Translations under genes and position numbers: made by a program
Notes under the pieces: model-generated
Seen by the model: only the letters and a program-made list of their open reading frames with translations
The model's database searches: none
What the model was told of the DNA's origin: nothing
Shown here: in pieces, positions 14,798 to 21,028 of the stretch
How positions within the stretch are numbered: the first letter of the stretch is position 1
Layout of the letters: every line of letters starts with the position of its first letter
Origin: a virus
IMG/VR virus record: IMGVR_UViG_3300032236_000325
Coordinates: 1 to 39,315 of that record
DNA length: 39,315 nucleotides
Reading direction: 5' to 3' (one strand)

Positions 14798-15831
14798 GCC
14801 TAGAAAAACGTTTGAACGATTTACCAGAAGGCATTGAATCTTCTGACGTATCTGAGTTACGCCGTGCGTTAATGCGTACACAAAAGAAGTTAATGGAAAC
14901 AAAACAAAAAGTTGATGATTTAGTAGAAGCAACACACAACGCGGCTTATGACGCAACACTTTCTGCGGGCGCAATTAACCCTGTACCAGAACCAAAGTTT
15001 GCTAAAGGTAATAACAAAAAAGCAGAAGTTGCGCTTTGGCATATGACTGACTGGCAAGGCGCAAAATTAACGCCTTCCTATAACTCACAAATTATGGCTA
15101 AACGCGTAATGGAATTTGCGCATAAAGCGGTAGCAATTACAGATATTCAAAGAGCAGACCACCCCGTTAATGATGTAACCATAATGTTTGGCGGGGATAT
15201 GATTGAAGGTTTATTTAACTTTCCCAACCAAGCATTTGAGATTGATTCCACGTTATTTGAACAATATGTAAATGTAAGCCGTTTGTGTGTAGATGTAGTT
15301 CGATTTGCACTTGCTAATTACAAAACAGTAACCGTTGTACCTGAATGGGGTAATCACGGGCGAATTGGTAGCAAACGCGACAACGTTCCGCGTTCAGACA
15401 ACTTTGACCGTATGTGTTATGAATTGGCAAAACAATTACTACAAAATGAAAAACGTTTAACTTGGCAAGATTGTCCAGAAGACATACAAAGAGTAGAAAT
15501 CGGCAATTACCGAGCCTTGTTAATTCACGGTGATGAAGTGGGCAGAAACGGATTTGCTAGTCCGGGCGCAATTGTTCAACACGCAAATCGCTGGCGTTCA
15601 GGTTCTTATGCGTGGGAGTTCCGTGATGTGTACATCGGGCATTATCACACACACGCAGAATGGGCTATGGCAAATGGATTAGGTTCGGTTTATCAAACAG
15701 GTAGCACCGAATCAGAAAATAGATATGCGAGTGTTAATTTAGCGGCGAGTGCCACACCTTCACAACGTTTACATTTTGTTGACCCAATTAAAGGTCGCGT
15801 AACTGCTAGTTACAAAATTTGGTTGGACTAA
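14794..15831 (+). CDS. Metallophosphoesterase (Mre11/SbcD-like nuclease)
   Basis: 345 residues from the ATG at 14794, which overlaps the preceding stop; a longer in-frame start would run inside that gene. After a coiled-coil N-terminus (RRALMRTQKKLMETKQKVDD) come the calcineurin-like motifs in order: HMTDWQG, GGDMIEG, WGNHGR, IHGDE and GHYHTHAE. The dimetal site appears complete. Similar phage proteins are annotated as DNA repair exonucleases, but the substrate here is unknown. The last four bases overlap the convergent minus-strand gene. Confidence 0.85.
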   Translation: MSLEKRLNDLPEGIESSDVSELRRALMRTQKKLMETKQKVDDLVEATHNAAYDATLSAGAINPVPEPKFAKGNNKKAEVALWHMTDWQGAKLTPSYNSQIMAKRVMEFAHKAVAITDIQRADHPVNDVTIMFGGDMIEGLFNFPNQAFEIDSTLFEQYVNVSRLCVDVVRFALANYKTVTVVPEWGNHGRIGSKRDNVPRSDNFDRMCYELAKQLLQNEKRLTWQDCPEDIQRVEIGNYRALLIHGDEVGRNGFASPGAIVQHANRWRSGSYAWEFRDVYIGHYHTHAEWAMANGLGSVYQTGSTESENRYASVNLAASATPSQRLHFVDPIKGRVTASYKIWLD

Positions 15832-16040
15832 TCCTCAAAATCTTCATCATCACCGTAATCGGTGGTACGTAAACTCATTACGGTAATATCAATTCCGTGT
15901 TCTTCTGCGGTGTGAACACCTTCACGGAACAAAGTTAAAGTGCGAGCGCAAATATCATCAAGCGCATCGGGATATGTAATCTCGGTGGATACTTCAACGG
16001 ATAAACCGCCGCAACGAATTTCTACTGATGAATAAGCCAT
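15828..16040 (-). CDS. Small minus-strand protein, unknown
   Basis: 70 residues from the ATG at 16038-16040, the only convincing minus-strand gene. It has a short beta start (MAYSSVEIRCGGLSVEVSTE), a helical middle (DALDDICARTLTLFREGVHT) and a very acidic end (DYGDDEDFED). No Shine-Dalgarno is present. A TATTAT box ends 6 nt before the ATG, suggesting a leaderless mRNA, which is common in Actinobacteria. It is convergent with the late genes and divergent from the early region, a usual place for a small regulator, but I do not recognise a family. Confidence 0.7.
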   Translation of the reverse strand: MAYSSVEIRCGGLSVEVSTEITYPDALDDICARTLTLFREGVHTAEEHGIDITVMSLRTTDYGDDEDFED

Positions 16041-16209: not shown

Positions 16210-16900
16210 CTACTACACACGCACACAAACCTCTTAGAACGCCCGCCAGACCCCTTAAATACCCGTCTAAAAACCACGTCGGCGTGGTGTGATAGGATTC
16301 TCTTAGTACGAACAACTAAATAAAGTGGATATCGAAAACCATCGAAACCCGTACCCGAGAAATCGGAATCGAGATTAACGCCAAGGCACTCGAAACTTAG
16401 GCGATGGAAATTAGATAGACCGCCCGTAAATTGAAAACTAAATAGGAAGAACAAAAAATCGGTGATAGGCAGATAGCAATAAATCCCTAGGGACTATCCG
16501 CAAGTGACGATTTTCCTTCCTATTTAGATACACAGACCGCACGAACTGTTACGCAATTAGATATTTTATTTAGTAACAGTTCACACGTAACCAGTACAAG
16601 AACCAAAGTCCGTTACAGCCAGCACTTAGTAATTCGGTAGATGCCACGCACGCCGATTTACACATTAGGCATACAAACGGTATTCATCAAGGTACGCAAT
16701 TCGGTGATATAACACATTTGGCACTCGGTATGACCCGCAAAATAAAGGAACGCCCGCAACCCGTAATCCCTCAGAACTGTGACAAGAAGAGGTCGGCGCA
16801 GAAGTTGCTAACCAGCGCACTCCGAATAAAAGCGAAGGACTCAATGGTGAACTAGCGGATGAGCATTACATCGAAACAGTATTCGGTGAAAAAAATATCT
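16210..16900 (+). ncRNA. Large structured non-coding RNA, possibly GOLLD-like
   Basis: About 700 nt with no credible coding frame but many stems: 16273-16278/16283-16288; 16339-16344/16402-16407 enclosing a GAAA-tetraloop hairpin (16355-16366) and TCGAG/CTCGA (16369-16373/16389-16393); a perfect 12-bp stem 16438-16449/16516-16527 with nested helices 16455-16461/16508-16514 and 16464-16468/16494-16498; a perfect 10-bp stem 16543-16552/16573-16582; and CAC(T)CCGAATA/TATTCGGTG (16818-16828/16880-16888). AGTA and GAA pairs near 16305 and 16594 could form E-loops. Size, stem density and phage/freshwater context fit GOLLD RNA (giant, ornate, lake- and Lactobacillales-derived). The family is inference because I cannot align it; ROOL or a new class is possible. 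Ends are approximate, and a hammerhead ribozyme follows directly. Confidence 0.65.
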
Positions 16901-16910
16901 AGGGACAAAA

Positions 16911-16983
16911 GATTCCGAAATTGCGCCGTCACTAAAAGGCGGCGCAATCTTACGGCTTGGCAACCGTAACTGATGAGGACGCC
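16911..16983 (+). ncRNA. Hammerhead ribozyme 1 (type II)
   Basis: All core parts are present in permuted order with stem II open. GAAA is at 16917-16920. Stem III is 9 bp (16920-16928/16940-16948). The cleavage base is C16949, and stem I is 6 bp (16950-16955/16964-16969). CTGATGA is at 16970-16976. Stem II is TCC/GGA (16914-16916/16977-16979). Predicted cleavage is between 16949 and 16950. It sits between the large RNA and the first early gene, whose ATG is 56 nt after the cut. Confidence 0.88.
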
Positions 16984-17005
16984 ACAAACAAAGGGAGATA
17001 CAAAA

Positions 17006-17347
17006 ATGGAAAACACAATCACTGCGCTCGTAGAAATCAAAGTTACTAACGAAAAGCGCAATTACGCAAAAGGGGAAGCACACACACTTCTTAATACATT
17101 AAAAGAAGTTACAAACGTTACCTTCCCAGAAACACACGTAGTTACAGATACCGCCAATAATTCAGAGTTAAGTCAAAAACTTGCTCAACTTATTAAAGAA
17201 GAAATTGAACGCGAATCTGGTTATCACAACGCACTAATCAATTACGTTGTAGATAAAACCGATTTGGAAAACGAATTTCTTGGTGAAGCAATGGCAAAGA
17301 TTATTCGTGAAGTTGCTGCAATTTACAACAATCTACAAACCATTTAA
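17006..17347 (+). CDS. First early protein, unknown
   Basis: 113 residues from the ATG at 17006 with AAGGGAG at 16991-16997; an upstream in-frame ATG at 16973 lies inside the ribozyme core and is not a likely start. The protein is helical and charged (AQLIKEEIERESGYHNALIN, EFLGEAMAKIIREVAAIYNN), with no recognised domain. It is flanked on both sides by hammerhead ribozymes, the second starting at the base after its stop, so its mRNA would be released as a single-gene message of about 420 nt. Confidence 0.8.
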   Translation: MENTITALVEIKVTNEKRNYAKGEAHTLLNTLKEVTNVTFPETHVVTDTANNSELSQKLAQLIKEEIERESGYHNALINYVVDKTDLENEFLGEAMAKIIREVAAIYNNLQTI

Positions 17348-17400
17348 GACCGAAACGCCCGCAAGGGCGTCCAACCGTAAGGCGGTTGCTGATGATGGTC
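17348..17400 (+). ncRNA. Hammerhead ribozyme 2 (type II, one extra U)
   Basis: GACC (17348-17351), GAAA (17352-17355), stem III 6 bp with a GCAA tetraloop (17355-17360/17365-17370), cleavage base C17371, stem I 6 bp (17372-17377/17383-17388), CTGATGA (17389-17395), then an extra T17396 before GGTC (17397-17400), which closes stem II with GACC. It begins at the base after the TAA stop of the upstream gene. The extra U next to the core may slow cleavage. Confidence 0.85.
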
Positions 17401-17427
17401 GTCAGAAAATAAAAAAGGGAGAAACAA

Positions 17428-17880
17428 ATGAACACAATGGAACAAAACTTCAATAACGCAAAAAAGGAAATCCGCACACTAGGCGTTAAAGTAAAAGTTA
17501 ACGTTATGGAATGTTGCAGAGGTTGTATCGGCACCGAAAAGTTAGGACTTAAAGATGAAAACCAACCTTACATCTACACATACGGCGGACAAGGCAACGC
17601 AATTTCGTGGGTAGATGGACTTCCATTTCTCCGTTCAGATGCTAAAAAGTGGCGTTTAAGTGATAAAGATTTGGTTAATTCCGAATACTTTAATCACGGC
17701 AATTTAACTCCAGAACTTAGCAAGCAAATTGTAGAAATTTTTCAACGTAATGGGTTCGTAGTTAATTGGGACGGCGGAGAATTTCATTGTATTGAAATTG
17801 ATTTCAAAGCCACTAAAAATAATCAAGACGTGGTGATGGCAGCCGAAGCCATTCTTCAAGACGTTAACAATTTCTGCTAA
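17428..17880 (+). CDS. Early protein with CCxxC motif, unknown
   Basis: 150 residues. The ATG has AAGGGAG at 17415-17421; an alternative ATG is three codons later. The motif VNVMECCRGCIGTEKLG suggests metal binding. The middle (QPYIYTYGGQGNAISWVDGL) and a helix-strand C-terminal half (PELSKQIVEIFQRNGFVVNW, FHCIEIDF) look like a folded alpha/beta protein. I do not recognise the family. It is bracketed by hammerheads 2 and 3, with no spare base between its stop and hammerhead 3. Confidence 0.8.
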   Translation: MNTMEQNFNNAKKEIRTLGVKVKVNVMECCRGCIGTEKLGLKDENQPYIYTYGGQGNAISWVDGLPFLRSDAKKWRLSDKDLVNSEYFNHGNLTPELSKQIVEIFQRNGFVVNWDGGEFHCIEIDFKATKNNQDVVMAAEAILQDVNNFC

Positions 17881-17933
17881 GAACGAAACGCCCGCAAGGG
17901 CGTCCAACGGTAAACGCCGTTGCTGACGAGTTC
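17881..17933 (+). ncRNA. Hammerhead ribozyme 3 (type II)
   Basis: This is the cleanest copy: GAAC (17881-17884), GAAA (17885-17888), stem III 6 bp with GCAA loop (17888-17893/17898-17903), cleavage base C17904, stem I 6 bp (17905-17910/17917-17922), CTGACGA (17923-17929), and GTTC (17930-17933), which pairs perfectly with GAAC. Core bases match the CUGANGA...GAAA...UH consensus. The following gene starts 53 nt after the predicted cut. Confidence 0.92.
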
Positions 17934-17957
17934 AGGCAAATAGAAAAGGGAAATCAA

Positions 17958-18401
17958 ATGGGACTACATTGGGACGTAACAAACTGTAATAACTCAGCGA
18001 CACTTCTTGAAGAAGAAAGTGGAGAATGGGCAATTACTAACGCATTAATTTGGTTAACAATTGGCGTTGACCAAGGCGTTATTTCAGAAACCAATATCGG
18101 CGAATTTTACGCACGAGTTAAGGTTTGGGAACTTGTTTCTGGCGCATTTATTACCAAAACAAATTCAGAAACCGATAAATTGGAAGATTACTTCATTACG
18201 TTTGGCGACATTCAAAAGCGTATTGGTTTGAATACAAACGTTAGCAACGTACCACTTACCGCTTGGTTGAAGCGTATTGACCTAGCAAATCAAAATATAA
18301 ATGGCAAAACTAAGTTAATTAGTAAGAATAAAATCAAGGCGGTTTATTACTCCGCTATTTCAGAAATTGAGGAATACACCGCATCAACAAACGATAACTA
18401 A
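17958..18401 (+). CDS. Early protein, unknown
   Basis: 147 residues with AAAGGGA upstream. Its start MGLHWDVTNCNNSATLLEEE is followed by helical stretches (EWAITNALIWLTIGVDQGVI, NIGEFYARVKVWELVSGAF) and a basic C-terminal third (KTKLISKNKIKAVYYSAISE). No known domain. It is the last gene of the ribozyme-separated set; the next gene follows with no gap. Confidence 0.8.
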   Translation: MGLHWDVTNCNNSATLLEEESGEWAITNALIWLTIGVDQGVISETNIGEFYARVKVWELVSGAFITKTNSETDKLEDYFITFGDIQKRIGLNTNVSNVPLTAWLKRIDLANQNINGKTKLISKNKIKAVYYSAISEIEEYTASTNDN

Positions 18402-20035: not shown

Positions 20036-21028
20036 ATGGCACATAATCTGGAGCAATTCTCAGATGGAACAACCGCTTTCTTTTCAAACCGAGAAGTAGC
20101 GTGGCACAAACTCGGCACAGTTACGCAAAATGCGCTAACCGCCGAAGAAGCACTTGAAACCGCTTATTTGGATTGGCACGTATTCAAATCCGAAGAACCA
20201 GTTTCAACTCCCGTTCTTTCATATGACGGAGAAAAAACGGAAACGATTAAGTACAAAGATAAGTTTATGACTTATCGGTACAACCCAAAGACGCGGGAGG
20301 CAGAAGCACTTGGCGTTGTGGGTAATCGGTACACACCAGTTCAAAATTCGGAAGCATTTTCGTTCTTGAACTTTCTCGCAGATGAATCAGGCGCAGTATT
20401 TGAAACGGCTGGTTCGATTGATAACGGCAAGAAAGTTTTTATGACAATGAAGATGCCAGAAGGTATGAAAATTGGTGGCGTTGATGATTTGGACTTGTAC
20501 CTTATGGCGTGGAATACGCACGATGGTTCAAGTTCTTTTAGCGTAGCAGTTACACCTATCCGCGTGGTTTGCCAGAACACGCTTACCGCCGCACTACAAG
20601 CCGCTAAGAGTACGTTCCTTCTCCGACATACTCCAAAGGTTCAAGGCAAGATTCAAGCCGCACGTGAAGCACTTGGTCTTACTTTCGCATACTGTGAAGC
20701 ATTTGAAGTTAAAGCGGAGCAGTTACTCTCACAAAAAATGACCGATAAGGAATTCAATACATTGGTTGAGAAGTTAATTCCAATTGATGATGAAACTCCA
20801 CGAGTACGCACACTCGCTGAAACGGCGCGTGGAACACTTAACGGTTTGTGGAAAGCACCTACGCAAGCAAATATCGCTAATACTAAGTGGGCGGCATATA
20901 ACGCCGTTGTTGAATATTCTGATTGGGCTAAACCAATTCGTTCAACAAATGTAGATACGGCTCGCGCCGTTCGCATCGTTACTGGTAGTGGCGATAATTT
21001 CAAAAATAAGGCACTTGCGCTTCTGTAA
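20036..21028 (+). CDS. DUF932 phage/plasmid-like protein
   Basis: 330 residues. MAHNLEQFSDGTTAFFSNRE, then AWHKLGT, then EALGVVGNRYTPVQNSEAFS, then VAVTPIRVVCQNTLTAALQA are hallmarks of the DUF932 / TIGR03299 family found in many phages and plasmids near recombination genes. Its biochemical role is not established. It closes the first early gene block: a 23-bp repeat begins at its last base and a terminator follows. Confidence 0.9.
   Translation: MAHNLEQFSDGTTAFFSNREVAWHKLGTVTQNALTAEEALETAYLDWHVFKSEEPVSTPVLSYDGEKTETIKYKDKFMTYRYNPKTREAEALGVVGNRYTPVQNSEAFSFLNFLADESGAVFETAGSIDNGKKVFMTMKMPEGMKIGGVDDLDLYLMAWNTHDGSSSFSVAVTPIRVVCQNTLTAALQAAKSTFLLRHTPKVQGKIQAAREALGLTFAYCEAFEVKAEQLLSQKMTDKEFNTLVEKLIPIDDETPRVRTLAETARGTLNGLWKAPTQANIANTKWAAYNAVVEYSDWAKPIRSTNVDTARAVRIVTGSGDNFKNKALALL

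Follow-up and report, generated by a model that had tools for sequence, protein, structure and literature searches.

A conserved array of type II hammerhead ribozymes in a phage operon, with a structured upstream RNA and a covarying tail hairpin

Three hammerheads in a rightward phage operon

The window, by which we mean the whole 39,315-base stretch of lake-type phage DNA analysed here, carries an array of three type II hammerhead ribozymes that follow a conserved non-coding region and alternate with small genes. The features of the locus, in order, are as follows.

15828-16040, minus strand: small acidic ORF of about 70 aa, flanked by the exonuclease gene and the non-coding region; this stretch is conserved across relatives
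16255-16913, plus strand: conserved non-coding region, a candidate leader or non-coding RNA, with no ORF common to relatives
16914-16979, plus strand: hammerhead copy 1 (leader), cut at 16949/16950, from the pattern scan and an orthologue alignment
17006-17347, plus strand: gene 1, 113 aa, no Pfam match; its stop TAA (17345-17347) abuts copy 2
17348-17400, plus strand: hammerhead copy 2, cut at 17371/17372, from the pattern scan and the Rfam model
17428-17880, plus strand: gene 2, 150 aa, weak match to PHROG 36236; its stop TAA (17878-17880) abuts copy 3
17881-17933, plus strand: hammerhead copy 3, cut at 17904/17905, from the pattern scan and the Rfam model
17958-18401, plus strand: gene 3, 147 aa, the first gene past the last hammerhead
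20036-21028, downstream of the array: DUF932 gene, by Pfam match

A strict scan of the full window for the type II pattern (GAAA, stem III, a UH cut site, stem I, CUGANGA and a closing stem II) returned exactly three hammerheads, all on the plus strand, and 0 matches per dinucleotide shuffle (100 shuffles, both strands), bearing out the initial annotation of three complete cores with three stems. The conserved core, comprising GAAA, UH at the cut and CUGANGA, is present in every copy. Stems I and III are closed by loops and stem II is open, with 3 bp in copy 1 and 4 bp each in copies 2 and 3; a single unpaired U adjoins stem II of copy 2. Cleavage is predicted after 16949, 17371 and 17904, which would place 5'-OH ends at 16950, 17372 and 17905, the same positions as first annotated. 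The GCAA hairpin loops ascribed to the array occur in copies 2 and 3 only, copy 1 having CACTAAAAG.

The Rfam type II model (Hammerhead_II, RF02276), suggested as a check, recovered two of the three copies: copy 3 scores 33.4 bits (E 1e-4) and copy 2 scores 32.5 bits (E 2e-4), both below the gathering score of 37, which is a score threshold and not a structural definition, and copy 1 gave no match to this model. Copies 2 and 3 align with the model from end to end, sharing its core, stem order and cleavage site, and differ from it by their short loops I and other tails. Despite a score below Rfam detection, we regard copy 1 as a secure hammerhead on comparative grounds, since stems III and I are preserved in its orthologues from 16 relatives by compensatory changes, which are many in the alignment of 17 phages (the window and these 16). 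Low Rfam scores could be taken as a sign of inactive, decayed remnants or genomic junk; with cores invariant, and stem changes compensated, in about 50 phages, we find this scarcely credible.

Each copy precedes a gene, as the initial annotation had it, with a Shine-Dalgarno site and an ATG 25-28 nt past stem II in all three cases. Genes nearby for RecT, an exonuclease and a replication initiator make the label 'early operon' plausible. Scanning for promoters and terminators gave no excess over shuffles. The minus-strand ORF at 15828-16040 adjoins the start of the rightward operon and bounds where the rightward transcript can begin.

Conservation of the array and two classes of hammerhead

Because a search with gene 2 gave one locus only, relatives were retrieved with the downstream DUF932 gene, which yielded 54 viral loci. 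In 49 of them the coding strand bears one to five type II hammerheads, located either upstream of the DUF932 gene or close to it, and loss of the core with the genes kept did not occur; a reversed-sequence control gave 2 matches over the 135 loci scanned. Of the five loci that carry none, one extends just 0.5 kb upstream and the other four are distant relatives (33-45% identity). Orthologous ribozymes have low sequence identity, yet their cores and pairing are retained in about 50 diverged phages. Stem II of the copy 2 and 3 type, whose pairing is part of the search, appears in relatives as AGGC, AGCC, GAAC, GACC, GGAC and TGGC. The genes between the ribozymes vary, and one gene family may have or lack its own hammerhead; the gene 3 family also sits behind a hammerhead in two relatives (L024, L026) and stands without its own in two others (L014, L023). 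The exact DNA pattern of stem III shared by copies 2 and 3 had 0 matches in viral contigs, and no relatives were found among isolated-phage DNA at the megablast level.

The hammerheads of this phage group fall into a leader class, at which no gene ends, and an internal class. Of 41 leader hammerheads, 30 can form a pseudoknot of at least 4 bp between loop I and the 3' tail; with the tails shuffled, the share is 19%. Copy 1 has it and copies 2 and 3 do not, the pseudoknot being common in type II ribozymes and not obligatory. Among internal hammerheads, the upstream stop codon ends at the first base of stem II or at the base before it in 41 of 54. Copies 2 and 3 begin directly after the upstream stop, as is the rule in relatives, where overlap with stem II is often seen. 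Compact phage genomes could explain this closeness.

Two loops are conserved within subsets of these ribozymes. Loop III reads ACUAAAA without variation in 27 of 41 leader hammerheads (for example 16914-16979), though stem III varies, and may be a tertiary contact or a protein site. A long stem III capped by the conserved loop GTAGGCAGTTTTTTAAT is seen in some internal hammerheads, among them 9131-9213 in L014, 9111-9193 in L015 and similar cases.

A tail hairpin that can pair with the catalytic core

Internal hammerheads carry a 3' tail complementary to their own catalytic CUGANGA box (score at least 5) in 45 of 52 cases, compared with 5 of 40 leader hammerheads and 7% of shuffled tails. The three tail pairings of the window are these.

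16958-16961 and 16981-16984, plus strand: copy 1 pseudoknot read from sequence, loop I UGGC with tail GCCA
17389-17405, plus strand: copy 2 anti-core hairpin, CUGAUGA (17389-17395) with UCGUCAG (17399-17405), 7 bp including one G-U
17923-17935, plus strand: copy 3 weak anti-core hairpin, CUGA (17923-17926) with UCAG (17932-17935), 4 bp

Within the window the anti-core hairpin is strong in copy 2 only, the 4 bp of copy 3 lying near chance level. Support for the pairing comes from covariation at core position N7, for which the tail was anchored on UCAG alone and its next base compared with N7. The pairs were U-A in 34 cases, C-G in 26, U-G in 4 and C-A in 0 (p=6e-14; 3e-5 for a non-redundant set). 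N7 switched three times independently on the DUF932 tree and its partner matched each time, three switches being too few for significance alone by sign test. Tail hairpin and pseudoknot are almost mutually exclusive (p=1e-6), and the hairpin associates with a nearby upstream stop codon (36/40 versus 57/110, p=9e-6). We rejected the anti-core hairpin as a general hammerhead feature: prophage hammerheads in bacterial genomes show it at chance level (4%, below the 7% of shuffles), so that it belongs to some lineages only.

Folding was modelled as secondary-structure ensembles, whose energies leave out the tertiary contacts on which real hammerheads depend. For 36 internal copies that belong to the hairpin class, and with such contacts outside the model, stem II has a probability of 0.87 without the tail and 0.08 with it, the hairpin then reaching 0.85. 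These values suggest a short co-transcriptional time for cleavage, with the core captured afterwards. They do not tell a product-release latch and a translation-gated switch apart; that the hairpin may have either role is what its covariation points to.

If the internal copies are translation-gated switches, GAAA and the 5' strand of stem II would lie beneath a ribosome that has reached the stop codon. With CUGANGA trapped by the tail, cleavage would be blocked, and processing would depend on translation of the upstream gene. Stop codons that abut or overlap stem II speak for this, as does their association with the hairpin, and with 10 nt occluded the modelled hairpin probability is 0.76 on average. 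The basis is, however, purely structural; stop proximity is also common in pseudoknot-type hammerheads that have no hairpin, and copy 3 hardly shows the hairpin even when occluded (0.06). We consider gating by translation unlikely.

A simpler reading is the operon-processing array proposed in 2011, in which cutting is constitutive and the effect of the tail is confined to the 5' leader that the product receives, with a hairpin-protected 5' end, an open ribosome-binding site and no switch. The downstream product of the internal copies does fold as a pair of neighbouring hairpins, after which the Shine-Dalgarno site lies open, the architecture is that of published active arrays (PMC3088659), and prophage arrays that lack the hairpin exist. 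An array alone, however, explains neither the pairing with the catalytic box and its N7 covariation nor the link of the hairpin to a nearby upstream stop. This reading is quite possible, if short of probable.

A structured upstream RNA and a model of operon processing

The upstream neighbour of copy 1 is not a gene but a conserved non-coding structured RNA region of about 0.65 kb. DNA between the minus-strand ORF and copy 1 is 66-76% identical in many relatives, over up to about 740 nt, and within it we delimit one core domain.

16586-16742, plus strand: RNA core domain (model R1), 27 pairs in 6 helices with a branched predicted fold

In the R1 structure 94.9% of cells are paired and 17 of 27 pairs show changes in both partners. 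No shuffle out of 500 reaches this level and slid controls are flat, although the structure was derived from the same sequences, which favours it over the slid controls. The R1 covariance model matches 29 loci of the phage group, seven of them weakly (E 1e-5 to 3e-3) and in the same place, and none of 180 other loci, which include 100 mostly hammerhead-bearing contigs. Where its position was checked, the domain precedes the leader hammerhead by about 135-205 nt; in the window, copy 1 follows it after about 170 nt. G-U pairs on the plus strand fit an RNA read in the operon direction.

No Rfam family gave a credible match to the upstream RNA (E<=5), and identification as a group I intron, GOLLD or ROOL was rejected for want of Rfam support. 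GOLLD and ROOL (PMC12286853) are likewise large structured non-coding RNAs in phage DNA; unlike them, the RNA described here has no Rfam match and is found only in its phage group. Pattern matches to it in viral contigs are attributed to chance, since the covariance model confirmed none among the matches listed. Comparative sequence evidence points to a conserved, strongly covarying and previously undescribed RNA that is specific to this phage group, and a new candidate for structural study.

Since the structured RNA precedes copy 1, copy 1 is predicted to cut at its 3' side; lying downstream of this RNA and not between genes, it would separate the RNA or leader from the operon. The proposal that the array splits a polycistronic message into separate mRNAs accordingly holds in part: shorter mRNAs are predicted, but copy 1 does not lie between two genes.

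We propose, and think it probable, that this is a self-processing phage operon in which the array acts co-transcriptionally and the internal copies carry a latch or switch of their own. The function that appears most likely for the array is to process the transcript. We infer activity, timing and the latch or switch role from the sequences, their covariation and conservation, and the stop-codon contact. The rightward transcript would start within the non-coding region, after 16040. Copy 1, working with its loop I-tail pseudoknot, would cut behind the structured RNA and free it from the operon, its new end being a 2',3'-cyclic phosphate past the hairpin of stem III. The internal copies, whose tails pair with the CUGANGA box instead, would cut between genes 1 and 2 (copy 2) and genes 2 and 3 (copy 3), giving short messages with a 5'-OH stem I hairpin at the start and a stem III hairpin soon past the stop codon at the end. 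Cleavage would take place as the RNA emerges, and the tail hairpin would afterwards capture the core, freeing the two products and preventing religation; where a ribosome at the stop codon is still on stem II, the hairpin would keep the RNA uncut. The most specific form of the proposal, that the internal hammerheads are bistable translation-gated switches, with the stop in stem II and a covarying anti-core hairpin, and that an undescribed large structured RNA receives its 3' end from the first hammerhead, we hold to be doubtful.

The 5'-OH and 2',3'-cyclic phosphate ends that follow from hammerhead cleavage could also serve circular or spliced RNAs, in which two cuts release single-gene RNAs that a host RtcB-type ligase closes. 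The 2011 paper mentioned this option, but its authors searched for circular or spliced products and found none (PMC3088659), and an RNA ligase was not found among the subset of window ORFs scanned; such a fate seems highly improbable.

Should the tail hairpin act as a latch or switch, it would provide a natural design rule for a ribozyme that cuts once during transcription and is then off. More broadly, the strict stop-codon position, the two ribozyme classes and the covarying RNA lead to testable predictions of when and why phage messages are cut. The role of phage hammerheads has stood open since 2011, a 2017 review (PMC6155905) calling it an open question, and a conserved array bears on it.

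Perreault et al. (2011; PMC3088659) described hammerhead clusters around genes in prophages and proposed operon processing; a triple array around ardA in Agrobacterium tumefaciens cleaves in vitro and in E. coli. As in the arrays of that paper, where several hammerheads flank single genes or short blocks in phage DNA and gene identities are not constant, the window's hammerheads flank genes or short gene blocks. The window differs in that its internal copies touch the stop codon and do without the pseudoknot usual in type II, and its first copy follows a structured non-coding RNA; the 2011 text, as far as searched, makes no mention of stop codons or an alternative core fold. What appears to be new, judged on sequence, is the structured RNA before copy 1, the stop-codon contact of the internal copies and the anti-core tail pairing.

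The array as such is not unusual. Three hammerheads in series had been annotated as rare, a view contradicted by the triple array of 2011 (PMC3088659) and by larger arrays, which viral contigs commonly contain. In an independent scan of such contigs by pattern, 107 loci together carried 212 distinct type II hammerheads, and after filtering the richest locus had 11. Dense arrays of the pseudoknot type, with 5 to 11 hammerheads per locus, occur in L240, L266, L157, L161, L174, L185, L218, L241 and L242. Clusters of at least four type II hammerheads are also present in contigs of bacterial genomes, from Sphingomonas (L301), Sphingopyxis (L313), Streptomyces (L328) and Cellulomonas (L274) as well as in L347, and are probably prophages.
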